From a virus: 40,351 nt of DNA. The position numbers were made by a program, and so were the translations under genes. Numbering within the stretch: the stretch's first letter is position 1; the number at the start of each line of letters is the position of its first letter. A model generated the notes under the pieces. That model did not search any database, had not been told where the DNA came from, and worked only from the letters and a program-made list of their open reading frames with translations. The DNA lies in IMG/VR virus record IMGVR_UViG_3300029951_000578, positions 1 to 40,351 of that record; one strand, 5' to 3'. Shown here piece by piece: positions 8,757 to 36,820 of this stretch.

Positions 8757-10775
8757 TTAGGGGGCGTATTCATAGGCTCCTATCGCGGGAGGGTTTGCGC
8801 GCGTCACGCCGGAGAAGTCAACAGGAAGGGCGCTTAGATAAACTCCCGCGCCGACCACAGCGCTTGAACTGGACGCCGGAGCCACGTTCCCATATCCATA
8901 AGGATGGTAAGTCTCATCCACCAGCCCCGGATCGCCACACACGGCCGCAGCGTCCCCCTGGTACCACGGGCAAGGCCAGTTGTTTCGCTGGCCATATGTC
9001 GCATTGTTCGTCCAGCTAGCGCCTGGATTTGTAAGCATATTCAGGTCGGTGTTCGAGTAGATTGGGGTGGGGTTCTGGCTGTTGCCTGGGTTCTCGAAGC
9101 CAACGAAGACGTTGTCGTTGAATGCCAAAGTGTTCGTGTTTCCGGTGTCAGAGGTTGCATATTCCACTTCTAGGAAGATCGCGCCTTCGGAGAAGACCGT
9201 GTTGCCCTGAAAGTAGGCTGGGTCTCCAGGGGTCACATTGATAAGCACCGCAACATTACCGGCGCGACAATAGTCTTGAAGGCGCGACCCAAAGCCTGAT
9301 GGAGTTCCCGGAATCTGCCAGGAGAAATTCGTAGTCGTTCCCGTCTCCGCCGCTGTGGTTGCATTCGAGATCGGCACCGCGGTGCCTGAAGAAGTTACCG
9401 TTACCGTCGCGGTCGCGAAGGTATTTGCTGGAATGCCGGGGCCAAGCACGACTTGTCCCTGATTGACAACGAGGGGATTTGAGGGTGAAGCGGTCGCCGT
9501 GATCGATGTAGCTCCTGAAGAAAACGTCGTCGAGAGGGGGTTGGAGCCTAGGGCATAGCAATTGCCATTGATGACGCTGTTCTGAATTGTTGCCGTCGCG
9601 CCGCCCACTTTGAGCTGGTTTCCTTCATTTCCGAAGGCGAGGACTCGCGTGTCGGTCATCGTAGACCCAGGCCCGCTGATATGCAGAGCATCGAGGCCAT
9701 CCTGCGTGTTGTAGCTCACGATGCCCTGGTCGAAGTGGACCTGCCAGCCCGGAGAAGCAGAGGCGACCGTAGCCGTCCCAAATCCATCCCCATAGCCGCC
9801 GCTGGACTGGTCGGTGCAGTCATAGGCTGGGATGGCATCGACGATGGGGTACTCTTCCGCGCATCCGTTCCAACTGATGTTGAAGTGAAATATGTTCAGC
9901 GAACCGACTCCGGTAGTCCCATCCCCTGCGTCGGCATTCCAGCCTGAGACGGGGTTGTCTACGATTGTCAGGTAGTCCGCTACTACTCCGTTCCCCGTAG
10001 ACCCGACGATTCCCCCAGCGCCCATGCCGTGAATCGCGATGTCCGTCAGAGTGTCGAAGGTCGAAGTGTTGTGAAACTGAATCCCTTGGCCAGCCCAGTC
10101 TTGGGTGTTGTCGCAACCTTGTATTTGCGACGCCCTCCCACATGCCGACCAATCCGTCATATCGAGGCAAGCCACATCCACGTAGGAGACGCCGTACATG
10201 TTCAAGACGTTATTGACCCCCATCCCGCCATGAAGCTGGGTCTTGGAAGAGTTGGAGTGGCATGCAGCGAAGTTCTCGCCCAGGAACTTGGTGTGTTGAG
10301 AAGAGGTGCCGGATGGAAAAGCAGGAGCTCCAGAGTCTCCAGGATCGCCCGCAATGCTGCACCCCGTATACGTGGAGCCGGTGTTCGCGCCTACCCTGTA
10401 CGAGACTCCTGTCCCAATCGACCCGCGGATAATCATCGTGTCTCCGCCGACAGGCAGCCATCCCCATGCCGGGAAATGGTTCCCGTCAGCATAGGTACAG
10501 TCCGTCCAAAGCATCCGCACGTCATTGAAAGCGCAGTTCTGGTCAATGCCTGTTCCGGGGTAGGGCGCATCGCCGAGTCCGTTGCACTGGCCCGTCGTTA
10601 CGTTACTGGAGTAGCGCGTTCCACCGTCCGGTCGCACATACCAAGTGTTGTTCGTCGCAGGAGGCGTTTGGGCCACGACGACAGAGCCGGAGATAACCGC
10701 CGATCCTGAAACCACAACGCCCTGCGCAAGCAATTGATGCGCGGCGACCAAGATCAAGACCAGAAGCCTTTTCAC
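8757..10775 (-). CDS. Secreted right-handed beta-helix protein, tailspike-like
   Basis: A 672-residue protein with a Sec signal peptide (MKRLLVLILVAAHQLLA, then Q). Residues about 45-160 contain WYVRPDGGTRYSSN, NQNCAFNDVR and GDTMIIRGSI, a lead-in seen in pectate-lyase-like proteins. Residues about 180-450 carry repeated short strands with Asn/Gly/Asp turns (GIQFHNTSTF, GIVGSTGNGV, ALHISGPGST, KVGGATATIQ) as in parallel beta-helix tailspikes and polysaccharide lyases. Many cysteines (more than ten) suggest disulphides and extracytoplasmic folding. A signal peptide is unusual for a tailspike. It overlaps the upstream gene by four bases. It could bind or degrade surface polysaccharide; catalytic residues cannot be assigned. 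Confidence 0.75.
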   Translation of the reverse strand: MKRLLVLILVAAHQLLAQGVVVSGSAVISGSVVVAQTPPATNNTWYVRPDGGTRYSSNVTTGQCNGLGDAPYPGTGIDQNCAFNDVRMLWTDCTYADGNHFPAWGWLPVGGDTMIIRGSIGTGVSYRVGANTGSTYTGCSIAGDPGDSGAPAFPSGTSSQHTKFLGENFAACHSNSSKTQLHGGMGVNNVLNMYGVSYVDVACLDMTDWSACGRASQIQGCDNTQDWAGQGIQFHNTSTFDTLTDIAIHGMGAGGIVGSTGNGVVADYLTIVDNPVSGWNADAGDGTTGVGSLNIFHFNISWNGCAEEYPIVDAIPAYDCTDQSSGGYGDGFGTATVASASPGWQVHFDQGIVSYNTQDGLDALHISGPGSTMTDTRVLAFGNEGNQLKVGGATATIQNSVINGNCYALGSNPLSTTFSSGATSITATASPSNPLVVNQGQVVLGPGIPANTFATATVTVTSSGTAVPISNATTAAETGTTTNFSWQIPGTPSGFGSRLQDYCRAGNVAVLINVTPGDPAYFQGNTVFSEGAIFLEVEYATSDTGNTNTLAFNDNVFVGFENPGNSQNPTPIYSNTDLNMLTNPGASWTNNATYGQRNNWPCPWYQGDAAAVCGDPGLVDETYHPYGYGNVAPASSSSAVVGAGVYLSALPVDFSGVTRANPPAIGAYEYAP

Positions 10776-11251
10776 GGCGTCACCGAGCAGGTCCCGCTTA
10801 CAATCTTTCCGGCTGAGTCAATCGTCAGCGTGTAGGCAACGGAAGCGGTAGGAGAGGCACCTAAGGCAGGGACGGTCCTTGGAGCGCCATTCACCGTCAG
10901 AGTCTGCGCCGAAGTCGTCTCCTGCACCTGCAACACCTTCGTGGTCCCTTCGGATGGATCGACGTTGCCGAACTGAGCCAGGTTGGCGACGATCGTCACC
11001 GGAGGACCGCTGGAGAGCGTCAGGGGCAGATCCCAGCATCCGCCAACCTTCACGCATGGAACAGAACCGGCATTAGTCACCGGGGTCCCTGCCGCCACGC
11101 CAAACTGCACCGTGATCGGCGATGTGCCGAAGACGACCGTATCGCCTTCGTTGGCCACGGTGAACCATACGGTGGGCTGTGGAGTGGCGACCGCTGGCGT
11201 CTGCGCGCTGGCGACTCCGCAAAACAGGGCTGCGAGGATGAGTATCTTCAT
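10772..11251 (-). CDS. Small secreted beta-rich protein
   Basis: A 159-residue protein with a clean Sec signal peptide, MKILILAALFCGVASA with cleavage predicted before QTP. The mature part is beta-rich and Thr/Val/Pro-rich, with one CVKVGGC pair in the middle and another Cys near the end, possibly disulphide-bonded; strands such as GDTVVFGTSPITVQFGVAAG suggest an immunoglobulin-like or fibre-shaft fold. The start follows TAGGAG. It lies between two larger secreted fibre-like proteins and overlaps the next start by four bases. Probably a secreted accessory fibre or adhesin component; no precise function. Confidence 0.7.
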   Translation of the reverse strand: MKILILAALFCGVASAQTPAVATPQPTVWFTVANEGDTVVFGTSPITVQFGVAAGTPVTNAGSVPCVKVGGCWDLPLTLSSGPPVTIVANLAQFGNVDPSEGTTKVLQVQETTSAQTLTVNGAPRTVPALGASPTASVAYTLTIDSAGKIVSGTCSVTP

Positions 11252-11278
11252 AAGACTCCTACCATGTTGCGTTGACTG

Positions 11279-11361
11279 TTACATCGAAAGTTGGAGCGGT
11301 GACGCATGTACAGGCGCTACGCCAATCAAAAAAAAGGAAGTGCGAAAAGTTTGATTTTCAT
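11279..11361 (-). pseudogene. Broken short signal-peptide ORF at a T8 tract
   Basis: An excellent RBS (GAGGAGGAACTT) precedes ATG 11361. The frame reads MKIKLFALPFF and then hits TGA at 11326-11328, immediately after eight T (11328-11335). A shift of one base at the T-run would continue LIGVAPVHASPLQLSM to a TAA at 11279-11281, giving a canonical signal peptide with an AxA-type (VHA) cleavage site. Either a short secreted peptide is made by slippage on the T-run, or this is a decayed gene. It sits between two signal-peptide genes. Confidence 0.4.
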
Positions 11362-11371
11362 AAGTTCCTCC

Positions 11372-14300
11372 TCAAATCGCCAACAGGTTTACGGAATATC
11401 CGGTATACGTCCATGACGAAGTGCTCTGGTTGCATACTTCTCCAGTTATCACTTTCGTGTCGGACGTAAACCCCGCGGAGATTACGATTCCGTCAGGCTC
11501 AGCGGCTGTAAATCCGGAAGCAGTATTTGAAAAACTTCCAGACACGACGGTCGTTGAACTGCCCCCCGGAAAAGTGCTGGAGCCTAAGGCTATGCAATTT
11601 CCCGGTGTCAGAGAGCCAGTACCAAGGTTGGCCTGGTACCTTCCTACCGCTACGGATGGACAATTCGTCCCTGTAGATTGGCAGACGGTATTGCCGCCAA
11701 CGGTAAGGGCCGTACCAAATGTGCCTGTAGCTGCATTGAGCGTGCCGCTCTTGTTCCCTGCCGTCCCGTTCCCCACGTCCACCACGCCCGCCGAGTCGCG
11801 AGAGAGGCCGGTGTCGGCTGCGGCGTCCGACGCTCCGCTTGCCGTCCATCCCCATATTCCTGTGGATGCAGTTGTTACCCGCATTAGCCCTCCGTGGGAG
11901 TAGATCGAGAATGGAACGGTAGAGGTCGTATTATTCAAAGCATCCAAATAATTTGGGCCCGCTCCAGTGGACCCCTCGACATAAGGGAATAGCCATGAGT
12001 CGGCTCCGCTCGGCGTGTAGGTGCCAGCAACCCCGTTGCCGCTAACCGTCGTCGCGACCGTAAGCCCTACGGTATTCAACTGGTTCAATGAAAGCGTGCC
12101 GCTGGTATTGCCCGCTGTTCCATTGCCTAGCGCTACGGAGGCTGCCCCAATCCGCGAGAAAGCGGTGTCCGCCAGCACATTGCTGGGGTTGAATCCTATA
12201 GTCTCCCCAGACGGCACGCTAAATCCGCTAGGACAGAATTGAGCAAGGGCTACGGAGGCGACAGTATCAAAGAAACCGCCGCAGGGGATGAGGGGCGTCG
12301 GAGCGCCAGACCCATTCTGGAACCAGAACGTGCCATGCCCCCCTGTAGAGGTATTAGCAATCACCTGTCCAACACTGGAAGTATTCGCACCCGTCACGCT
12401 CGTCACTACCGCCAAGGAAGGGCTGCCAGCGAAAACCTGCGTTGTTGTGAGGTTGTATGGGTTGGGCAAACCGCCTGAGCTACATCCGCTGTTGACCGGA
12501 GCCCCATAAAGGTTTCCGCAAACCACTCCAGCCGTCACGGTCGGCGCTAGTGGATATGTGATATTCGTGGCCACGGCCCATTGAGGAGACTCAAGGTTCG
12601 GCGTAGTGCCACTGCAAGTTGAAGCCCCACGAGCGAAGTATTCGCATCCGGGATCAACACTATTGAGAAATGTCCCCAGAAGAGTTTCAACCTTTGGCTG
12701 ATCGACTACGCCCAAAGCGCGCGAGAACCAATCATTCGTAAAGCTCCAAAACCCGCACTGATAATTACCAGTGCAAGGCGTGGCTGTCGAAGTGTAGGGG
12801 GGCCCTCCGGTGGTTGGGATGGTGCCCACAATGGCCCATTCAGTAGGACTCTGGAGGATGTAGCCAGCGGCATTGGTGAGCGTCGAGAAGTTCGTATCGA
12901 AGTAGTTTTCGATAGTGGTCTTCTGACCGGAAGTGAGGATGTTGGGCGGGGCCATAACAGGCGAACTGTCTGCGGCAATCGCCAGTGATGAAGAGACTAC
13001 ATCAAGGTTGGTGGAATCCTGAATTGTAGCCGCGATAAGCAGCCCTGATGTTCCATCGATTAGATTCGCCCTGATGCCTGCTACTAGCAATGCTAAGTCG
13101 TTCGTGAAGAAAGTAACATTCGTGGCATCTCCGGCAGCCGTAGCCAGTTTCAACATCTCTGCATCGTCAATCGCAGCCCATACGTTGCAGTTGGCTACCG
13201 CGCCGGTGTTGCGCATATATTCCATAAATTCAGTACCACAGACGAACTCAGATGCAACGCCAGTTCCAGGGCCAGTGGGGACGGTGTAAAGATGAGTCGA
13301 ACCGTTGCGGGGAACAAGCGCCCACGCCGCTTTGATGTGCGCCACCAGCGCCGTGTACTCCGCTGTGCAGGCCGATGAACCAATGCCGGTCTTGAGGCAG
13401 TATAGGTATAGATTCTCCGGCACCATGATGCGCCCGTCGCCCGAGGCGGTACCATTCCCCGCCCCGCAGGAGAGGTCAAACCCGGAACAATAGCTTTGGG
13501 CGTTTACGCCGCCGCTTGGGAGTACAGAAGTCGGGTAGCCCAGCGACCCGCTAAAATTGGCATCGAATTTGGTCAGCGTGTTCAACAACAAAGACGCCGG
13601 GCACTTCGCCGGGTTCCCCATGCAGGCTAAAGTTTGGTCATCAATGAATTCTCCAAAACTCGCATAAACAGGCCCAGCGGAGCAATATTGCGTGCCATCC
13701 GTAAACTTGTTGTTGCAGTTCTGGTCGAAGACGCTGTTCGCCTGCACGGTCAAAGGAGAAGCGACATTGGCGGCAGCAGGAGTGCTGATGGGGGATTGGT
13801 AGTTGACATCTCCAATCGCTGTTGCAAGTGCCCCCCCTGTAGCCGAAATCTGCACGGCCCCAAGACCCGCCGCCGCTCCGCCCCCTCCGCACAGCCCATT
13901 TGCCACGGTACAGATTGGGGAGGACGAGGAGCTAGTGATGATGTTCACGGTGTGCGTCGAGGAGATGGCCTCGAGACCTTGAACTCCCGAGCTAACCGTG
14001 CTCGCTGTACCCTCTACAGCAGTGAGTATCCCCCCGTTTCCCCCCGTGCTGCGGAGAATTTCGACTTCTCCTCCCTCTGAGGTCAGGGATCCCGCAGCGA
14101 ATGGCTCATTCGTATTGATCGTCGTGGCGTTGTCGGTAATGGAAGAATTGCCAATAGTGCCGGTGCCGGTAAATTTAGGAATGGTGTTGGGAGTTCCAGA
14201 GCCGGTTACGCCGCTGCTTGATGCTCCGACCTGCACATAGTTCGCCCCATCCGAACACTTCACGCGCACCGTCGCACCGGCAGCGATGGTCACCACCGTG

Positions 14301-14599
14301 CCCGTCAATCCGCCAAAGGTAATTGGGCCGCTTTCCGAGTTCGTTACGTCGTATGCCTGCCCGATGTTCCTCGGCGCAACGATGGTGGTGGCCGTGCCCG
14401 CGATGTTCAGCCCCTGATGCCACCATTCATTCGGCACAAGGGTATAGGTCGAACCGCTCGTGGTGACGGAATATCCGCCCAGCAGCGCCAGCCCTCCGGT
14501 ATTGCCGACCGTTCCCGGCAGCAGGGTTGTGGGCGGTGCGCTCTGGGCCCAGCACTGCATCCCGATCATCAATGCGCCCAACGCGATTAGCTGTTTCAT
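11372..14599 (-). CDS. Very large secreted tail-fibre-like protein
   Basis: A 1075-residue protein starting with a Sec signal peptide (MKQLIALGALMIGMQCWAQS). Residues about 30-330 are Gly/Thr/Ser-rich with fibre-like repeats. A central globular part (about 330-720) is rich in Cys, Trp and Tyr and helical, with DDQTLACMG, SASGD-like loops, VCGTEFMEYMRNTG and NWFS-type segments, resembling an (alpha/alpha) barrel glycosidase, though I cannot assign catalytic residues. The C-terminal third holds two copies of the phage-fibre repeat SR...VxVGNGTAGNxSGTL (about 840 and 940). Typical tail fibres lack signal peptides, so this fusion is odd. The stop is followed by the broken 11279-11361 ORF. Likely host recognition or depolymerisation. 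Confidence 0.75.
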   Translation of the reverse strand: MKQLIALGALMIGMQCWAQSAPPTTLLPGTVGNTGGLALLGGYSVTTSGSTYTLVPNEWWHQGLNIAGTATTIVAPRNIGQAYDVTNSESGPITFGGLTGTVVTIAAGATVRVKCSDGANYVQVGASSSGVTGSGTPNTIPKFTGTGTIGNSSITDNATTINTNEPFAAGSLTSEGGEVEILRSTGGNGGILTAVEGTASTVSSGVQGLEAISSTHTVNIITSSSSSPICTVANGLCGGGGAAAGLGAVQISATGGALATAIGDVNYQSPISTPAAANVASPLTVQANSVFDQNCNNKFTDGTQYCSAGPVYASFGEFIDDQTLACMGNPAKCPASLLLNTLTKFDANFSGSLGYPTSVLPSGGVNAQSYCSGFDLSCGAGNGTASGDGRIMVPENLYLYCLKTGIGSSACTAEYTALVAHIKAAWALVPRNGSTHLYTVPTGPGTGVASEFVCGTEFMEYMRNTGAVANCNVWAAIDDAEMLKLATAAGDATNVTFFTNDLALLVAGIRANLIDGTSGLLIAATIQDSTNLDVVSSSLAIAADSSPVMAPPNILTSGQKTTIENYFDTNFSTLTNAAGYILQSPTEWAIVGTIPTTGGPPYTSTATPCTGNYQCGFWSFTNDWFSRALGVVDQPKVETLLGTFLNSVDPGCEYFARGASTCSGTTPNLESPQWAVATNITYPLAPTVTAGVVCGNLYGAPVNSGCSSGGLPNPYNLTTTQVFAGSPSLAVVTSVTGANTSSVGQVIANTSTGGHGTFWFQNGSGAPTPLIPCGGFFDTVASVALAQFCPSGFSVPSGETIGFNPSNVLADTAFSRIGAASVALGNGTAGNTSGTLSLNQLNTVGLTVATTVSGNGVAGTYTPSGADSWLFPYVEGSTGAGPNYLDALNNTTSTVPFSIYSHGGLMRVTTASTGIWGWTASGASDAAADTGLSRDSAGVVDVGNGTAGNKSGTLNAATGTFGTALTVGGNTVCQSTGTNCPSVAVGRYQANLGTGSLTPGNCIALGSSTFPGGSSTTVVSGSFSNTASGFTAAEPDGIVISAGFTSDTKVITGEVCNQSTSSWTYTGYSVNLLAI

Positions 14600-23745: not shown

Positions 23746-24195
23746 TCACCCCTTCACAAACAATCCCTTGGTCAGCATATCCGGTGTCGCCGCGAATCCC
23801 AACCTTTTTTCGCAGAATAGCTTCAGCGCCGGGTTCTGGCTGTCGAACACCAGCTCATGCTTGCCGAGCCCGCCCAGCAGCGCGCCCAGCCACGCCATCC
23901 CCGCCATCAAGGCCAATTGCGTCCGCTCCCGCTGCTCCCGCGTGCGCGACGGCCCAAACTGTATCATCGCCTTCACCGTCTGCTGCATGTGAAAAAAGAA
24001 CACTGGGCCATGCTCGTCTTCCAATATCCACGCCTCTTCGCCCTTCCCCTGCTGCAGCCAGAACTCCGGCGCAATCCGTCCCGCATGGTGCGCATCTTCG
24101 CTGGTCCACGTCCGCGCCAGTTCCAGGTCATCCTCCCCGGCAGGCCGCAGCGTGTATCCATCAAACGTGAAGGTCGGCAGTGGTTTCGGCGTCAT
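23746..24195 (-). CDS. GNAT-like acetyltransferase-fold protein
   Basis: A 149-residue protein with the general order of a GNAT fold: YTLRPAGEDDLELARTWTSE (strand 1 and helix 1), VFFFHMQQTVKAMIQFGPSR (strands), a helix MAGMAWLGALLGGLG, then ELVFDSQNPALKLFCEKRLGFA, where the last part matches the terminal helix/strand (xxxFCEKxLGF) of acetyltransferases. The central acetyl-CoA loop (Q/RxxGxG/A) is not convincing, so it may not be catalytic. GNAT-like proteins of this length occur in phage morphogenesis regions. ATGA-type overlap with the gene upstream. Confidence 0.5.
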   Translation of the reverse strand: MTPKPLPTFTFDGYTLRPAGEDDLELARTWTSEDAHHAGRIAPEFWLQQGKGEEAWILEDEHGPVFFFHMQQTVKAMIQFGPSRTREQRERTQLALMAGMAWLGALLGGLGKHELVFDSQNPALKLFCEKRLGFAATPDMLTKGLFVKG

Positions 24196-24368: not shown

Positions 24369-24528
24369 AAGCCTCTTCCTTCCATCCCGGCTGATGAACT
24401 GGGTCTGTGGGATGTCCACCACAGACGCGGCACCAATATACGCCCTCGCTGGGCTGATCCATCGGAACCAGTTCGTGTCCGATCATCACGCCATCTTTGT
24501 CGTAGTGGAGCGGGTTCAGGGTGCTCAC
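24346..24528 (-). CDS. Hypothetical 60-residue protein with CxxC
   Basis: A GTG start overlaps the TGA of the giant virion gene (GTGA). The text is MSTLNPLHYDKDGVMIGHEL, then YWCRVCGGHPTDPVHQPGW with CRVC plus two His, a likely zinc site, and an acidic end. Small zinc proteins of this kind are common between phage structural genes. Function unknown. Confidence 0.6.
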   Translation of the reverse strand: MSTLNPLHYDKDGVMIGHELVPMDQPSEGVYWCRVCGGHPTDPVHQPGWKEEAYGEADAA

Positions 24529-27500
24529 GGCTGTTGTTTCCTTTCACTCTTCTTCGCCCCATAGATCGCGTGCGCCAGCAGCTCGCTCGCCGCGTTCTCC
24601 GCCGTCCACTGCACCTTCATCTGCAGATACCGGCACTTCGGCGTCACCTTGCCCTGCAGCATCTCGAAGCGTTGCGCATACACACTCTGCGGCGTCCGCT
24701 TCACCAGCGGCGGGTCGGCAGTCTGCTCCAGGTAGGAGACAAACGGAGCATTTACCGTCGCGGCAATCTCGCCAAACAGCATCGCAATCGTCGGCGCGGT
24801 GCCCACCTTCACGCTGTCGAGCGTCACAAAGGCTATCTCCGCCACCTCGCCCGCTCCGGCTAGCACCAGCCCGCCAATCGTCGCATACGGCGCGCCAAAG
24901 TCGGTGCCATCATCCTGGTTCGTACTCGAGTCGCGCACCAGGATCGGCCCCGTCGTCCCCGCCGCAGGCCCGATCAGCAGTTGATTGATCCCCGGACTGG
25001 TCTCGATCGATTGCACCGCGCTCGTCCCGCCCGCAATCGCCCGCCGCGGACTCCACACCGCGCCGCTCTCCGGGTTGTTCAGGAAGTTCAGCCGGAACCA
25101 GCCCACCACCCCATCCGCCACATACAGCGCATTCTCTTCCGTGCTCTCGCTGTTCCACGCCACAAAAGCGGTCGCCGGGTTGTAGAGCGCCGTGGAAATC
25201 CCGCCCGTCGTCACCTTCTGGAACTGGTCGCCGATCGGCTGCCCGATCTCCGTATACCCCGTCGCCGGGTTGAACGGATACTCCACCGCGATCGCCGAAA
25301 CCTTGCCCGTCGCCTCCATCACAAACATCGTCGTGTTGAACAGCGAAATCGCGTTGTAGTTCACCACGTTCACGCTGCGATAGTAGGTTGTCGAGTAGAA
25401 CGGATTCGTCGCCGTCCCCGTCCCCAGAATGATCTGGATGCCCGAGCTGGTATACACAATCAGGCCGCCATTCTGCACCGTCACCGGGATAATCGCGTAC
25501 ACCTTGCCCAGAAACGCGATAAAGTTCACCGGCGGCTGTGCCGTGTTCCCATTGCCCGCCAGCGTGTCAGGGCCTCCCGAGTACCGGACCAGATTGCCGT
25601 CCGCCCACCATACCCGCTGGAACGCATAGCACATCGGCAGGCTGGTTGCCGTCGGCGGGTCGTTCGCATCCGCCACCGGCGCCGGAATAAGCGCATTCAG
25701 GCTCGCCAGCCCCAGCGTCGACGCATCCGCGATCCCCGCTTCGCCGTAGCTGAACGTATTGGTCAGCCCGTCCGCCGGTATCTGGTCCTCCAGAATCAGC
25801 GTTGCCCCGCCCTGCACCGTGCGCCAGATCCATATCTGGTCGATCTGCGGATCGGTAAACAATCCCGGCGAAGTAGCCGCCAGCGTCAGAATCGGGTCCA
25901 GCACCGCCGGTGCCTCGCCCAGAACGCCCCCATAGATAACCGCCACCGGAGACGCCGTGCTGACGCTCCCATCCACCGCATGCGTGCTGTACGCATACTG
26001 CAAACTCTGGTAGCTCAGCGACGAGCCCGACCCGCCCACGCTGATGCACTTCCACGTCAGCCCACCATCCGTCACCGCCGCGCCCAACGTCGTCCCCCAC
26101 GTGGGCTCCGTTACCCCGCTCGTTCCCCCCGCGCCGTCGAACAGCCATTGCAGGTTGCCGTTCGAATCGATCAGGCACGATCCCGTCACCCCCGCGTTTG
26201 CCGCGTCCGCCTGCCATATCCCCGGCTGCCCCAGGTTGTACCAGGTCAACCCGCCGTCCACCGTCACCGCGTTGGCCCCGCCCGGCGTCGCGATGCCCGT
26301 GGCCACGGGAACCTGCGCGGCCGCATCCCAGCCTCCCGGCGTGCCGCTCACGTCCCCGGCCACCCCCAGATTGTAAAACCAGCCCGGCGGCACCGAGAAC
26401 ATGAATCCCAGCTTGCCGTTGCTTCCCGTACCGGCTCTGTCAGTCGCCGTAAATGTCGTTCCCCATGTGTTCATCGTCGGGGGGTTCGTCGGCCCCACCA
26501 GCAGATCAAAAACCGCAATGCTGTTGCCTGCAATTACCAACCCCCAGCCGCTGTGCAGCTCCGTGTTCGGGCTTGTGTTCTGGTAGACCGTGTTGAAGTT
26601 GTTACCAGTCGCCGCCGGCACCCCGGTTAGGTTCGTCGCCACCAGTTGCGCCGCCGCCGGCGAAGCCGACCACGTGGGATACACCGGCCCGCTGCGGTTC
26701 GTCCCCGAGGTCGACGCCACCACCTCGATATTTCCATTCGAGTCCAGCAGGCTCGTAAACTGCGGAAACGCCGTGTTCGGCAGCCAGAACCGTCCCGCCA
26801 CCGGCGTCAGCGTCGGCGGCACCAGCGGAGCCACCAGCCCCGTATTCTGCACCGCTGGCCCATAGCACTTCCACTGCTGCCCCGCATCCTGCGTCACCGC
26901 CAGTCGCGTCGCGTTGAACGTCGGCACCGTGCCATTGGTCGTCCCGTTGCCCGTCGTGCCCTGCCCGGTATCCGGCGTATAGGCCTGCGCCGCGCCCGTC
27001 GTCGTCGTTACCTGGAAGATGCCCAGCGTCGAGCTCAGCACCTTGTCCACTGCCAGCGTCTGCCCGTTCAGCGTCGTATCCGTCGTCAGCCCGGAGAACG
27101 CCACCTCCACGCCCACCAGGTTCGCGAAGTTCGCCGGCACCTGCTGCGGATTCACATACACCAGATGCTGCCACGAGCTGCCCGCGCCCGAGACCGCCGT
27201 CGCCACCACCGGCACCGTGATCCCGCCCAATGCCATGTACAGCACGCCCGGCTCCGCGCCCTGGTTGATCAGCGTTCCCGGCAGCACGTTCGTGCTCGCC
27301 TGCCAGCCGCCGGGAAACAGCCACTTCTTCTGGTCCACCCCGTTGCCCGCATAGAACTGCGCATTCGGCAGACCCAGCATCCGGTTCGGCCCCGCACCCG
27401 CAGATGCCGCAAAGATCGCGCTGATCTGCCCCGGCGTCGCGTCGTACAGCGTCCCGTCCGCGCCGTCCTCCAACACCCGGATCGCTTCCACATTGTTGCG

Positions 27501-27791
27501 CAGCGTCTTCCACGGATAAAAACTGTTTGCCGCCGGGAACGTATTGCTGTTGAAGACGCTCGACCCCGGCGCGCGCACCGGCGTCATCCGCGAACTCATC
27601 TCGATATTCAGCCCATCGATCAGCCGGTCGTACCGGCTCGCCGAATAGAACTTCTCCTGCAGGTACGGCACCGCCGGGTCGCTCAACTGGCTGGCCTGCG
27701 TAATCAGCCCGCTGATGTAGCGGTTCATCGAAAGCGCCGCGTACTCCGTCGCCTCCGGCAAAGCCCCGTTCTGGGTAAATGGATTAGCCAC
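24525..27791 (-). CDS. Giant virion protein (tail hub or stabilisation-like)
   Basis: A 1088-residue protein. The N-terminal 150 residues include DGLNIEMSSRMTPVRAPGSS, NTFPAANSFYPW and DGADGTLYDATPG, a pattern found in large podovirus tail proteins. The central region consists of many WY/G-rich beta repeats (TDGGLTWKC, GGLTWYNLGQPG, QQWKCYGPAV), and the C-terminal third has IDQIWIWRTVQGG, CYAFQRVWWADGNLV, GIQIILGTGTATNPF and EYPFNPATGY. Many repeated GLTWxxLG-like strands suggest a beta-propeller or stacked beta sheets. Starts with GTG at 27791, sharing a base with the upstream TAG. Probably tail tube or hub, the T7 gp12 / P22 gp10 position in the order of genes. Confidence 0.6.
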   Translation of the reverse strand: MANPFTQNGALPEATEYAALSMNRYISGLITQASQLSDPAVPYLQEKFYSASRYDRLIDGLNIEMSSRMTPVRAPGSSVFNSNTFPAANSFYPWKTLRNNVEAIRVLEDGADGTLYDATPGQISAIFAASAGAGPNRMLGLPNAQFYAGNGVDQKKWLFPGGWQASTNVLPGTLINQGAEPGVLYMALGGITVPVVATAVSGAGSSWQHLVYVNPQQVPANFANLVGVEVAFSGLTTDTTLNGQTLAVDKVLSSTLGIFQVTTTTGAAQAYTPDTGQGTTGNGTTNGTVPTFNATRLAVTQDAGQQWKCYGPAVQNTGLVAPLVPPTLTPVAGRFWLPNTAFPQFTSLLDSNGNIEVVASTSGTNRSGPVYPTWSASPAAAQLVATNLTGVPAATGNNFNTVYQNTSPNTELHSGWGLVIAGNSIAVFDLLVGPTNPPTMNTWGTTFTATDRAGTGSNGKLGFMFSVPPGWFYNLGVAGDVSGTPGGWDAAAQVPVATGIATPGGANAVTVDGGLTWYNLGQPGIWQADAANAGVTGSCLIDSNGNLQWLFDGAGGTSGVTEPTWGTTLGAAVTDGGLTWKCISVGGSGSSLSYQSLQYAYSTHAVDGSVSTASPVAVIYGGVLGEAPAVLDPILTLAATSPGLFTDPQIDQIWIWRTVQGGATLILEDQIPADGLTNTFSYGEAGIADASTLGLASLNALIPAPVADANDPPTATSLPMCYAFQRVWWADGNLVRYSGGPDTLAGNGNTAQPPVNFIAFLGKVYAIIPVTVQNGGLIVYTSSGIQIILGTGTATNPFYSTTYYRSVNVVNYNAISLFNTTMFVMEATGKVSAIAVEYPFNPATGYTEIGQPIGDQFQKVTTGGISTALYNPATAFVAWNSESTEENALYVADGVVGWFRLNFLNNPESGAVWSPRRAIAGGTSAVQSIETSPGINQLLIGPAAGTTGPILVRDSSTNQDDGTDFGAPYATIGGLVLAGAGEVAEIAFVTLDSVKVGTAPTIAMLFGEIAATVNAPFVSYLEQTADPPLVKRTPQSVYAQRFEMLQGKVTPKCRYLQMKVQWTAENAASELLAHAIYGAKKSERKQQP

Positions 27792-28093
27792 TACGCGGCC
27801 TCGGCCAGCGGCGCTAAATCATAGAGCGATTTCACGGTCAACGCAAAGCGGTAGGCCATCTCAGATTGCAGATTCATCAGCGCAGGGTCGGTGGATGTCT
27901 CCATTGCGATGTCGCTGAAACTCATATAATCCGCGTACTGCCCAATACAAACCTCGGTCGGGGCAATCACTTTTGGAGCTTCGGCAGCGATGCACGAGGG
28001 GATTATCTTAGCCAATACTGGTGTAGCCGCGACGATTCCGAGAGCCTTCAGGAACTCGCGGCGGCTGACCCTCTTCCGTTCCACGTGGAGCAT
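27791..28093 (-). CDS. Twin-arginine signal fused to a capsid-protein fragment
   Basis: A 100-residue protein. Residues 10-16 are SRREFLK, an exact match to the Tat consensus (S/T)RRxFLK, followed by a hydrophobic stretch (ALGIVAATPVLA) and Cys34. Residues 51-90 align without gaps to residues 150-189 of the major capsid protein (31352-32545), with 23 of 40 identical by eye, including GQ-ADY, FSD, DPAL and EMAYRFA. It is therefore a truncated capsid paralogue behind an export signal. It sits in the connector/tail module, two bases after an adaptor gene and sharing a base with the giant virion gene. RBS GAGGGG is a little far. Possible roles: membrane-targeted assembly nucleator, decoy or receptor-masking protein; unknown. 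Confidence 0.7.
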   Translation of the reverse strand: MLHVERKRVSRREFLKALGIVAATPVLAKIIPSCIAAEAPKVIAPTEVCIGQYADYMSFSDIAMETSTDPALMNLQSEMAYRFALTVKSLYDLAPLAEAA

Positions 28094-28095
28094 AC

Positions 28096-28818
28096 CTAGA
28101 TACCCCTCGATTCCAGCCCCAGCTTGCCCATCCCCTGCGCCCGCTGCGCCGTGCCCGCGTACAGGTCCAGGCTCGCCAGAAAGATCGCCTTCGCCTGCTC
28201 GTCCAGCCCATCCTGCAGGCCCAGAATAATGCTGGCAAACTCCTTCGCAAAGATCGGATAGCGCGAGTCGTTCACCAGCAGGCTCATCTCCTTCAGGAAG
28301 CCTGCCTGGAAGAGAAACGCAAACTCATCCGGGACAGGCGCAAAGGTGTACGCCGTACACAGCAGGATCGCCGGCTTCTTCTGGTAGGTGATCACCACGT
28401 CATACGCCTGGTCGGGCCCGTTCTTCAGCCGCCACGTAATGTTGCCCGCATTGTCGTCCAGCTGCGGCGCAATCAGCGTAGGCCGCGTCACCGACATCGC
28501 CGATGTATCGATCGGCAGGCTCAGCCGCCCCTCGATCGGGTAGCTCGTCCCGCTCGGGTCCACCAGCCATGCATCCTCCATAAAGCCGAAGTCCGGGATC
28601 GCCGCCACGTAATCCACCGTCGCCGGCGTCGTCACCGACGTGCCAAAGCTCGCCGTGCCGCGGTTCCACCGCCAGCGGAACGGCGCCGACAGCAGCCGCT
28701 GAAACACCTTGTTTCCGCTGGTCAGCGCAGGCTCCAGGTTGCTCGTCGTCGTCTCCTGGTTCTTCAGGAACGGCTCCGCCCAGTTCATCACCGCCTGCAA
28801 TGTGATCGCACTGCTCAT
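28096..28818 (-). CDS. Putative head-tail adaptor, paralogue of 29413-30429
   Basis: A 240-residue protein (MSSAITLQAVMNWAEPFLKN...). Residues 38-54 (FQRLLSAPFRWRWNRG) match the LLSERFNWKWNSK motif of the 338-residue protein encoded at 29413-30429; both also share an IPD...F..GF region before the C-terminal helices. This pair occupies the place of connector or tail-tube-A proteins after the capsid gene. It is shorter because it lacks the insert of the larger paralogue. Adaptor function is inferred from gene order and length. Stop TAG is two bases before the next ATG. Confidence 0.55.
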   Translation of the reverse strand: MSSAITLQAVMNWAEPFLKNQETTTSNLEPALTSGNKVFQRLLSAPFRWRWNRGTASFGTSVTTPATVDYVAAIPDFGFMEDAWLVDPSGTSYPIEGRLSLPIDTSAMSVTRPTLIAPQLDDNAGNITWRLKNGPDQAYDVVITYQKKPAILLCTAYTFAPVPDEFAFLFQAGFLKEMSLLVNDSRYPIFAKEFASIILGLQDGLDEQAKAIFLASLDLYAGTAQRAQGMGKLGLESRGI

Positions 28819-28826
28819 GGGGATTC

Positions 28827-29348
28827 CTAGTTGACGCGCGTCTTTGGTTCGTCAGAGTCATCGAAATCGTCGACGGTATTCTTTTTGCCAGCCTTCAGAA
28901 TGTTCGGCAACGTTTGCTGCATCGGCTGGAATTCCACGAAGAACTGCTGGAACGCATAGTCCTTGACGAAGGCGTGGAGTTGATCGGTCAACGGGTGCTC
29001 ACATTCAAAGACGAGCTCGCAGATGTCATCCTCGCGGCGCATCACCAGAGAGAATATCTTGCAGCCAGTCAGGTACATCAACTGAGGCGCTTTCATGTCT
29101 TGAGTGGCGAAGAACTCTACCGATTGGTCGTCAATCTCTTTTGTGAGGGAGATTTCCTCAATACTGTTTTCGAAGGCGCAAATCTGCTGATAATTGCTGA
29201 TTAGCATCTGGTCGCACTGGTTTACCAGCGCATCGTCGAGAGTGACGACCAACTTCAAAGTCCATAACTTCTTACCTGTTTTGGCGACCTGTTTCAGCTT
29301 GCCGCCGCGGAAAAAGACACTGGGACGTATCGCTTCAAAGAATTTCAT
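28827..29348 (-). CDS. Hypothetical virion-region protein
   Basis: A 173-residue protein from ATG 29348 (MKFFEAIRPSVFFRGGKLKQ), after GAGAGG; the frame is open to 29504, but that part includes palindrome copy 5 and does not look coding. It contains FRGGKLKQVAKTGKKLWTLK, acidic helices and an acidic tail with DDFDDSDEPKTRVN. No recognised fold. It lies between the two adaptor paralogues. Lower GC than its neighbours, which hints at a moron. Confidence 0.65.
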   Translation of the reverse strand: MKFFEAIRPSVFFRGGKLKQVAKTGKKLWTLKLVVTLDDALVNQCDQMLISNYQQICAFENSIEEISLTKEIDDQSVEFFATQDMKAPQLMYLTGCKIFSLVMRREDDICELVFECEHPLTDQLHAFVKDYAFQQFFVEFQPMQQTLPNILKAGKKNTVDDFDDSDEPKTRVN

Positions 29349-29369
29349 CGGGAAAACCTCTCGGAGAAA

Positions 29370-29384
29370 ACAGAATGATTCTAA
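29370..29384. promoter_or_regulatory. PerR/Fur-like palindrome, copy 5 (ACAGAATGATTCTAA)
   Basis: Core at 29372-29382. On the minus strand it has the extended form CAAATTAGAATCATTCTGTT. It ends 21 bases upstream of the 29348 start, in the gap after the 29413-30429 gene. Confidence 0.7.
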
Positions 29385-29412
29385 TTTGCATTTCGCGGAA
29401 GCGATACGGAAA

Positions 29413-30429
29413 TCAATAAGGCGTCGCCGGATTCTTCGGGTTGCGCAAGCCACCCGGGTACGCCCAGTCCATCGGGAAGCTGCCCGGCACCAGCCCATAC
29501 GCACTCTGCTCCTTATCGCCCTGCTTCGCCGCCTGCGCCATGTTGCTCAGCCACAGTTCCAGTGCTTTGTCGAACCGCGCCCGCACATTCGGGTCAGGGC
29601 TCTTCGACATGCAGTACGCTTCAAAACCACGTTCGAAGTATTGCGAGTAGTTGTCCGGGATCGGGTTCAGCAGGTCGCTCAGCTTCACAAAGCGCGTTGG
29701 GATGGTCTGGTACTTCACCTGGATCTGGTACACCGGCCCTGTCGCTCCCGGCAGCGGCCACACCCTCCACCCCTGGCTCAGCGGCCCCGCCACCGTCCAT
29801 ACGCAGCTCCCATCCGTCACGGTCGTGCCCTCGGCACTGTTCGCCGCCAGCACCGGCGCGGTCGAACCCGTCACCCCGGTCGATGCAGGGTTTGGCGTGG
29901 TCAACACCAGAATGTTGCCGTTCGCATCCAGAATCGCCATCGGCGGGTTCTGCGATACCTGTCCCGCCGCCGTGATCAGCGCACCGTAGGTCACATTCGG
30001 CCCCGGCCACACCCCGTAGCTCAGATCCTTGTTGTACATCCAGCACAGTTGCGTTGGCCAGCCGCACTGCGCCGCCCACAGGCTCTGCCGGGGCAGTGCG
30101 CGTACCACCTGCGTGTCCGAGGCACGGCTGATCGGCTTGGGCAGCGCCGTGTTGTTGATGTCTACCCAGTAAAAGAATTCCAGCCACTCAACGTCAACGA
30201 GACCTATCTGCGGGTAATCCTGCTGGAATGTATTTGTGTAAAACGGCTGCGCGTTCTTCGAATTCCACTTCCAGTTGAACCGCTCGCTCAACAGGTCGCT
30301 CATCGTATTGTTCGCCAGCGCCAGGCACACCTTCGCGCCATACGCGCCCGGATTCGCCTGCGGCGACGTGTCCCCCGCCACCGCCACGCGATCGATGATG
30401 TCCTGAACGCTGATCGTACTATTGCCCAT
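29413..30429 (-). CDS. Putative head-tail connector/adaptor protein
   Basis: A 338-residue protein beginning MGNSTISVQDIIDRVAVAGD. The motif MSDLLSERFNWKWNSK near residues 43-58, VEWLEFFYWVDINN near 80-93 and the late PIPDNYSQYFERGFEAY segment are shared with its shorter paralogue at 28096-28818. A Gly/Thr-rich insert (about 155-220) containing GVTGSTAPVLAANSAEG and CVWTVAGPL resembles the beta modules of the giant virion protein. Placed two genes after the capsid gene, it fits a connector or tail-tube role. ATG 30429 follows a structured 107-base leader. Confidence 0.6.
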   Translation of the reverse strand: MGNSTISVQDIIDRVAVAGDTSPQANPGAYGAKVCLALANNTMSDLLSERFNWKWNSKNAQPFYTNTFQQDYPQIGLVDVEWLEFFYWVDINNTALPKPISRASDTQVVRALPRQSLWAAQCGWPTQLCWMYNKDLSYGVWPGPNVTYGALITAAGQVSQNPPMAILDANGNILVLTTPNPASTGVTGSTAPVLAANSAEGTTVTDGSCVWTVAGPLSQGWRVWPLPGATGPVYQIQVKYQTIPTRFVKLSDLLNPIPDNYSQYFERGFEAYCMSKSPDPNVRARFDKALELWLSNMAQAAKQGDKEQSAYGLVPGSFPMDWAYPGGLRNPKNPATPY

Positions 30430-31320: not shown

Positions 31321-31355
31321 GTAATTTGATTACTTTCCGGCTGTAATCAAATTAC
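31321..31355. terminator. Perfect 12-bp stem-loop overlapping the capsid stop codon
   Basis: GTAATTTGATTA (31321-31332) and TAATCAAATTAC (31344-31355) are perfect inverted repeats with an 11-base loop. The capsid TAA stop (31352-31354) lies in the stem. It is AT-rich without a T-run, so it is more a 3'-end-protecting hairpin than a classical terminator. Confidence 0.5.
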
Positions 31356-32545
31356 GTGGTTTGTGGTACAGCCGCCCAAACCCGCGCACGGCTGGTCGTA
31401 TCCGGCGGAGGCCCGAAGGCGCCAATCCAGTTGTAGCTGGTCCCGGCCTTGATCACGCCCGCGGAATCGAACGCGCTCGGCTTGTCGTAGTTGCCGCGCC
31501 ACAGTTGGATGTTCTTCCAGTTGCCGTCGCCCAGCTTCGTCCGATCCGGCCGATCCATCTTCACCGCAACCACCGCATCCTCGCCCGCCAGGTAAGTATA
31601 CAGCGCCGTCTGCCCGCTGCCCTGCCAGTTGGGAGACTGCGTTACCTGCGTGCTCGTCATCCAGCGCGCGCCAAACAGGTTGATCACGTCGCACTCGTCG
31701 CCGTCGGCAAGCTCCTCCAGCCTGCGCAGCCCGTCGTCAGTGTGCTTCATGATGTCCACAATGCTGTTGTTCGTCGAATCGATGTACAGGTCGCCGATAA
31801 ATGCATTGTGGATCACGCCATGGTATTTGCGGTCCTGGATCGGCAGCACGTTCTGGATGCCCAGCGAAGCCACGTTCTGCTCCAGTTGCGACTTGGTGAA
31901 GTAGTACGGCGTGGTGGTCGCATCGTAGGTGCCCGTCTTCGAGTCCAGCGTGCGCAGGTAGTCGAACTGAGCCCGCACCAGCGCCTGGATCGATTCCGCG
32001 AACCGGTACGCCATCTCGCGCTCCACATTCTCAAGCGCGGGATCGATGGTCGTATCCATCACGAAGTCGGAGAAGTTGACGTAATCCGCCCACTGCCCCA
32101 TCACGTAGTTCACGAAGTTCACCGTCAGCGAAATGCCGGTGCCCACCGTGCCCTCGGTCTGCTGCGTGGTGTTCGGCCCCAGCGTGTTGTACATAAACGC
32201 GCGGTAGGCCTGCCCCGCATGCGCCGGCATCTCGCGCATGGTGCAAAGCAGTAGCATTACCAGATTGGCCTTCAGGTTCTTGAAAAACTTGTTGTCGTAG
32301 TGGATCGTTTGCGACGCCTGCGGCATGTTCGCCGACTGCATCGACGTAGGCGACGGTCCAGCCCCGAACACAGGGTTGTGCGCAAAGAGAGCGGCGGACT
32401 CCATGGCAAACTTCGCCGTCCACGCACTCGCGTTCGTGAAGGCGGCAAACGCCATCACCAGGGCAATGGCCGGGAGGAAGATCATCCGCACCAGTCCCCA
32501 CGAAAATTGATTCATTCGGTTCAGATCAAGCGTCTGTCGCTTCAT
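31352..32545 (-). CDS. Major capsid protein, N4-gp56-like
   Basis: A 397-residue protein in the major-capsid position, after a scaffold-like gene. Residues about 80-200 match the N4-gp56 family layout: YDNKFFKNLKANLVMLLLCT, NYVMGQWADYVNFSDFVMDT, DPALENVEREMAYRFAESIQ. Later parts contain GVIHNAFIGDLYIDSTNN and WQGSGQTALYTYLAGEDAVV. The N-terminus is odd: from this start, residues 20-41 (RMIFLPAIALVMAFAAFTNA) are hydrophobic behind a basic stretch, like a signal anchor. An internal ATG at Met48 (MESAALFAHNP) would give a normal capsid, but its RBS is weak. The stop is inside a stem-loop, followed by a second hairpin, as expected for a highly expressed gene. Confidence 0.82.
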   Translation of the reverse strand: MKRQTLDLNRMNQFSWGLVRMIFLPAIALVMAFAAFTNASAWTAKFAMESAALFAHNPVFGAGPSPTSMQSANMPQASQTIHYDNKFFKNLKANLVMLLLCTMREMPAHAGQAYRAFMYNTLGPNTTQQTEGTVGTGISLTVNFVNYVMGQWADYVNFSDFVMDTTIDPALENVEREMAYRFAESIQALVRAQFDYLRTLDSKTGTYDATTTPYYFTKSQLEQNVASLGIQNVLPIQDRKYHGVIHNAFIGDLYIDSTNNSIVDIMKHTDDGLRRLEELADGDECDVINLFGARWMTSTQVTQSPNWQGSGQTALYTYLAGEDAVVAVKMDRPDRTKLGDGNWKNIQLWRGNYDKPSAFDSAGVIKAGTSYNWIGAFGPPPDTTSRARVWAAVPQTT

Positions 32546-36277: not shown

Positions 36278-36820
36278 CTAAGCCGCCTCTTCCATGTTCA
36301 ACGATGCGAACTCGCCGTGTAGACGCTTCGCTGCTTCATCATATGCCCGCGCAGCCTCTTCTTTTGAATCAAAATATCCTAAGAATGTCCTCTCGCCCTG
36401 AACTTGTATACTGGCTCTCCATCGTCCCGTTTTCGCGAATAGACTTATCCCTCGGAATCCGCTGCTACTGTCTCGGCGCAAGCCCTGGTTACACATCTGC
36501 TCAGATCGTGTGGCTGGGTTGAGGTTGGCAATACGGTTGTCTAGACTGTTGCGGTTTCTGTGGTCTGGCTCGCGGTCTAGGTTTTTCTCTAGTACCTGGC
36601 GGTGCATTCGAATCTTTCGTTTCACACCTCCGATCCATTGCGCTCGGTGCGCATAATATCTTTTCCCTCTTTTATCCCAACAGGCAGACCAGTTCCATCG
36701 CGCTAAATGATCAGCAGCGTCAGCGTCGACGCACGCAAATTGTTGTTGCGTCAACTGGATGTAGGCAATGCTCGGGCCGATTACGAAGATTGCTTGGCGC
36801 AGACTTCCATGTTTTCTCAT
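36278..36820 (-). CDS. HNH homing endonuclease with AP2 domain
   Basis: A 180-residue protein inserted exactly between the terminase stop and the portal start. The N-terminus has the beta hairpin IQLTQQQFACVDADAADHLA of this family. The HNH motif is His73 (MHRQVL), Asp86-His87, Asn90 and DNRIANL (94-100). Residues 119-178 form an AP2 DNA-binding domain: SGFRGISLFAKTGRWRASIQ, then FLGYFDSKEEAARAYDEAAK and HGEFASLN. Such free-standing endonucleases are mobile genes that cut empty sites in related phages, often next to terminase. TerL, this gene and portal are joined by TAGATG junctions without spacers. Confidence 0.9.
   Translation of the reverse strand: MRKHGSLRQAIFVIGPSIAYIQLTQQQFACVDADAADHLARWNWSACWDKRGKRYYAHRAQWIGGVKRKIRMHRQVLEKNLDREPDHRNRNSLDNRIANLNPATRSEQMCNQGLRRDSSSGFRGISLFAKTGRWRASIQVQGERTFLGYFDSKEEAARAYDEAAKRLHGEFASLNMEEAA

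Follow-up and report, generated by a model that had tools for sequence, protein, structure and literature searches.

ORF100, a gene of the window analysed here (the whole 40351-base sequence of an IMG/VR virus record), joins a Tat-type signal to a segment of about 41–50 residues of an N4-gp56-like major capsid protein (MCP). The explanation we prefer, with a probability of about one half, is that ORF100 is a real accessory gene of the late operon, composed of these two parts, assembled at an insertion hot spot and kept for a use other than shell building. A functional signal would mean that a tailed phage directs part of a capsid protein to the membrane or through it, a strategy for which no precedent was found in the literature searched; the initial annotation had regarded such export as undescribed among phages.

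The Phage and the Position of ORF100 in the Late Operon

Among 50,697 phage records, the sole relative found was Tunturiibacter phage Tunturi_3, whose MCP is 37% and whose portal is 30% identical. Tunturi_3 is a podovirus that was isolated using an Acidobacteriota strain (PMC11924767). The window phage is a soil podovirus distantly related to Tunturi_3, and its host probably also belongs to the Acidobacteriota. Searches with the MCP, adaptor, and nozzle gathered well over a hundred related loci (L numbers in the text). ORF100 lies between two late genes as follows:

27791..28093, minus strand: ORF100, ATG start, 100 aa, Tat-like signal plus capsid-derived segment
28103..28108, minus strand: GAGGGG, resembling a ribosome-binding site, 9 nt before the ORF100 start
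28096..28818, minus strand: second adaptor-like protein, directly upstream of ORF100, homologue of Tunturi_3 gp13 by alignment
24525..27791, minus strand: nozzle-like protein, directly downstream of ORF100, homologue of Tunturi_3 gp19, putative nozzle role

The translation of ORF100 is MLHVERKRVSRREFLKALGIVAATPVLAKIIPSCIAAEAPKVIAPTEVCIGQYADYMSFSDIAMETSTDPALMNLQSEMAYRFALTVKSLYDLAPLAEAA. The names “second adaptor” and “nozzle” are putative, following gene order and sequence character; the nozzle-like protein is 63–69% identical in L167–L172. ORF100 starts after a gap of 2 nt behind the stop codon of the upstream gene, its TAG shares 1 nt with the GTG start of the nozzle gene, and the GAGG of the nozzle gene sits inside the last codons of ORF100. 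It is a real gene and not an artefact, and probably belongs to the accessory genes of the late operon. Its third-position GC is 0.68, versus 0.83–0.86 for the MCP, second adaptor, and nozzle genes. Another low-GC gene (51%), without a family, is found at 28827–29504 (minus strand) between the two adaptor genes and near ORF100, so that two accessory insertions lie close together.

Other genes of the window, all on the minus strand, include an acetyltransferase-like gene downstream of the nozzle (23746–24195), kept in many relatives including Tunturi_3 (gp22), and an AP2/HNH-type homing-endonuclease-like gene between the terminase and portal genes (36278–36820). Within 8757–14599, three consecutive genes (8757–10775, 10772–11251, and 11372–14599) begin with classic Sec-type signal sequences (MKRLLVLILVAAHQLLAQ, MKILILAALFCGVASAQ, and MKQLIALGALMIGMQCWAQ, respectively); their third-position GC is lower, and no Pfam or PHROG family was found for them.

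The Adaptor–Nozzle Junction in Related Phages

The junction between adaptor and nozzle measures at most 30 nt in 69 of the 93 distinct phages in which it is covered and is longer in the other 24, where the insert is often a small gene unrelated to ORF100. A few of these 24 inserts are a further adaptor-like gene, while others, identified from sequence alone, resemble GIY-YIG or HNH nucleases, a methyltransferase, glycosyltransferases, a cupin, or 33-residue membrane peptides. Because the inserts differ between phages, the junction is a hot spot for accessory genes, and ORF100 is the only Tat-capsid occupant seen there. The 33-residue peptides, with a single membrane span, occupy the same slot at 9990–10091 of L019, 14252–14353 of L024, and 4718–4816 of L100. 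A conserved stretch of about 290 nt spans the slot exactly in L011 (13657–13953), L033 (14053–14355), and L043 (14715–15008); it could encode a protein of about 98 residues or form a structured RNA, and a tRNA search of it found none.

The fusion itself was present in no relative examined, and ORF100 was likewise found in no bacterial genome; conservation of the Tat motif among relatives, on which the initial annotation had made its proposal depend, therefore cannot be claimed. No second capsid fragment was detected in any other phage found, since the profile of the segment finds a single copy in each phage apart from the window, always within the MCP. The single near-identical record, L003, stops short of ORF100. 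The composite is thus a novelty of one genome, whereas signal-like N-termini on capsid modules are a habit of the group.

The Tat-Type Signal

The N-terminal half contains the following features:

28046..28066, minus strand: twin-arginine motif SRREFLK, ORF100 residues 10–16 (S10 to K16)
28010..28069, minus strand: Tat signal profile match, ORF100 residues 9–28 (PF10518, TIGR01409)

Only one of the two curated Tat cut-offs is passed by ORF100: NCBIfam TIGR01409 matches residues 9–24 with 17.3 bits, above its cut-off of 16.7, and Pfam TAT_signal PF10518 matches residues 9–28 with an E value of 2.8e-4 and 21.1 bits, just below the cut-off of 22.7. A motif of the type [ST]RRxF[LIVFM][KR] arises in 5 of 200,000 shuffles of the ORF100 N-terminus, which makes the exact motif noted in the initial annotation statistically real; the hydrophobic stretch it described after the motif is also present, at residues 18–36, with a mean hydropathy of 1.83. 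The N-terminus is, as judged by motif and profiles, a genuinely Tat-like sequence that is separate from the N-terminal extensions of the MCPs described below, and export is its predicted consequence.

The Capsid-Derived Half

The capsid-related features of the window are:

27824..27946, minus strand: capsid-derived segment, ORF100 residues 50–90 (BLASTP E 9e-15 to the MCP; TIGR04387; alignment)
31352..32545, minus strand: major capsid protein, N4-gp56-like, 397 aa (phrog_1357; TIGR04387)
31979..32101, minus strand: matching MCP segment, residues 149–189, strand and spine-type helix in a low-confidence model
32354..32545, minus strand: N-terminal hydrophobic extension of the MCP, residues 1–64, common to a clade of relatives

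The window MCP is called N4-gp56-like because its TIGR04387 score (36.5) is below the cut-off of 60. Residues 50–90 of ORF100 align without gaps to MCP residues 149–189, with 23 of 41 identical and 35 of 41 similar, and the BLASTP E value of 9e-15 rejects chance similarity; the earlier count by eye, 23 of 40 over residues 150–189, was essentially right. At the DNA level, 74 of 105 bases are identical. TIGR04387 (N4-gp56 MCP) independently matches ORF100 residues 46–87, with 16.4 bits and far below its cut-off of 60, and a profile of the capsid segment of the MCPs scores 55 bits. By these comparisons ORF100 is a fragment of an MCP and not an MCP. Profiles, motif, and E value together support the joining of a Tat signal to a capsid fragment that had been proposed, although for a single genome. 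Modelled alone, ORF100 gives a poor structure (pLDDT 55) in which only part of a helix at residues 70–99 is moderately confident. The MCP model, of low confidence (mean pLDDT 45) and used for secondary structure only, places a strand at residues 148–159 and a long helix at 168–200; a search by sequence found no solved structure for this MCP family.

The differences between ORF100 and the MCP segment are distributed as 13/8/21 over codon positions 1/2/3 (dN 0.32, dS 1.57). In neutral simulations, in which the ORF side drifts freely and third-position change is set as observed (600 runs), about 35 changes are expected at positions 1 and 2 against 21 observed, and 12 identities against 23 observed, with no run as conserved as the real pair; an ORF-side dN/dS of 0.2–0.5 fits the simulations. 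The capsid half has therefore changed far less than neutral drift allows and is kept by protein-level selection, although capture from another phage would imitate such selection, as a recently captured, already diverged MCP piece would carry the constraint of its donor. Two columns that are invariant in 28 MCPs are changed in ORF100 (I167T and E172M); this relaxation at some MCP sites indicates that it has not evolved as an MCP and speaks against a very recent capture. As to the source of the segment, the tree places it next to the window MCP (local support 0.87), whereas the MCPs of L008, L155, and L097 also match it at 23 of 41 positions, and its DNA identity is equal for the window MCP and L011 (81/123 each). 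The segment could thus derive from the MCP of the window or from that of a related phage. Of the roles suggested initially, the domestication of a capsid duplication fits best, with the reservation that the duplicated MCP may have been that of a related phage.

MCP Extensions and Alternative Explanations

An N-terminal extension of 47–108 residues before the capsid core is found in 59 of 122 distinct MCPs of the group, including that of the window, and all 59 hold a hydrophobic 19-mer with a mean hydropathy of 1.24–2.45. The other 63 have fewer than 20 residues before the core, with no MCP in between. In addition to the window (32354–32545), the bearers are L001, L010–L083, L087–L090, L155, and L167–L184, and the Tunturi_3-type MCPs are without an extension. 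The differences in 13 independent close pairs, 82/63/185 by codon position, show that the extension is translated and constrained. The presence of a translated hydrophobic extension on about half of the group's sampled MCPs bears on whether heads are assembled at the membrane.

These extensions raise the alternative that ORF100 is an MCP copy with an internal deletion, whose N-terminus works like an MCP extension in assembling the head, possibly as a scaffold inside it or at the membrane, and looks Tat-like by coincidence. The order of parts is the same in both (basic start, hydrophobic stretch, capsid core), RR occurs in five extensions, such as those of L002 (SFARRILIPILEF) and L155 (SARRTMLYTYAIL), and the extensions are replaceable beyond recognition, as that of L155 matches none of the others. 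However, when several extension profiles were tested against shuffles, no relation to the ORF100 N-terminus was found (77 of 1000 and 211 of 500 shuffles score as well), while the extension of the window MCP matches its profile with none of 500 shuffles as good; a derivation of the N-terminus from an MCP extension is not supported. In addition, the [ST]RRxFL-type motif is in no extension and the Tat models match none of the 10 extended MCPs tested, which leaves this alternative improbable. A broader proposal, which we regard as a long shot, is that the group builds or organises its heads at the inner membrane through the signal-like MCP extensions, and that ORF100 is a dedicated capsid helix directed to the membrane, through Tat or otherwise, which regulates this process or blocks competitors.

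It is also conceivable, though doubtful, that recombination at the hot spot left ORF100 as a relic or neutral by-product, perhaps translated but functionless, and kept open since its end supplies the ribosome-binding site of the nozzle gene. Its occurrence in a single genome, the unclear source of the segment, the lower third-position GC, and the position of the GAGG are in line with such an origin, whereas the codon-position pattern and the simulations disfavour neutral drift, the packing in the operon is exact, and chance would hardly keep the Tat motif intact. As a capsid decoy, ORF100 would occupy an MCP-recognising host sensor (CapRel-like or Lit-like) and thereby keep the infection from being aborted. 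Its synthesis would coincide with that of the MCP, and a viral capsid protein has been described as directly activating a bacterial immune system (PMC9712102); nevertheless, no sensor is known for this phage group and the signal would take ORF100 away from cytoplasmic sensors, making this role very unlikely. An assembly or frameshift artefact, the objection anticipated in the initial annotation, could be suspected because a single contig shows the junction, L003 stopping short of it. The coding frame is intact, start signals are present on both sides, and complete adaptor and nozzle homologues flank ORF100; moreover, because the gene boundaries fit the operon to 2 nt and 1 nt and protein-level selection acts on the capsid part, there is scarcely any room for an artefact.

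Proposed Function and Comparison with Known Systems

Under the accessory-gene explanation, recombination at the hot spot would have assembled ORF100 by joining a stretch that codes for the signal to a copied MCP segment, its own or that of a close relative, and the product would have been retained for some purpose other than shell building. More tentatively, ORF100 would most likely be a late accessory protein with a predicted targeting to the inner membrane, made together with the head and tail proteins, brought there by its signal, and presenting a single capsid-type helix. The Tat system transports proteins in the folded state, and a small helix suits it poorly as a passenger, so both translocation and stalling at the membrane are possible. 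If the passenger is translocated, the site of action of ORF100 would be the envelope, with superinfecting phage as one possible target, and its length of 100 aa with an N-terminal signal match fits a small superinfection-exclusion membrane protein, although this criterion is not specific. Stalling as an unfolded Tat precursor would instead leave ORF100 tethered to the cytoplasmic face of the membrane as a capsid-binding peptide. As capsids assemble in the cytoplasm, putative export does not sit easily with a capsid-related role. For the membrane nucleator and the dominant-negative capsid that had been suggested, the capsid half must be in the cytoplasm, in conflict with Tat export; both would thus depend on stalling, whereas a role in the envelope or in exclusion would depend on translocation.

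Like the Tat signal peptides of exported bacterial proteins (TIGR01409/PF10518), the ORF100 N-terminus has an SRRxFLK motif, a moderately hydrophobic stretch with a lysine late in it, and an end of small residues (IAAEA); unlike the usual Tat substrates, which are normally folded, its passenger is a 60-residue capsid-derived segment predicted to fold poorly alone. Residues 50–90 are homologous to the strand and long-helix segment of the N4-gp56 family MCPs (TIGR04387), such as Tunturi_3 gp6, and keep most of its conserved columns. However, ORF100 holds only about 10% of an MCP, lacks the second half of the protein, has two invariant columns altered, and carries a Tat signal before the segment. 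The MCP extensions of the relatives of about 40 kb (L010–L184), from the same phage group, share with ORF100 the basic start and the hydrophobic stretch followed by capsid sequence, with no detectable sequence relation; they precede a complete MCP, and many keep P-x-x-[EQ] in the hydrophobic stretch instead of the SRRxFLK motif of ORF100. Finally, a prophage-encoded defence protein is described as blocking the virion assembly of other phages (PMC10884400). If ORF100 acts against competitors, it would likewise do so by contact with virion assembly, although ORF100, unlike that protein, is located in a late structural operon.
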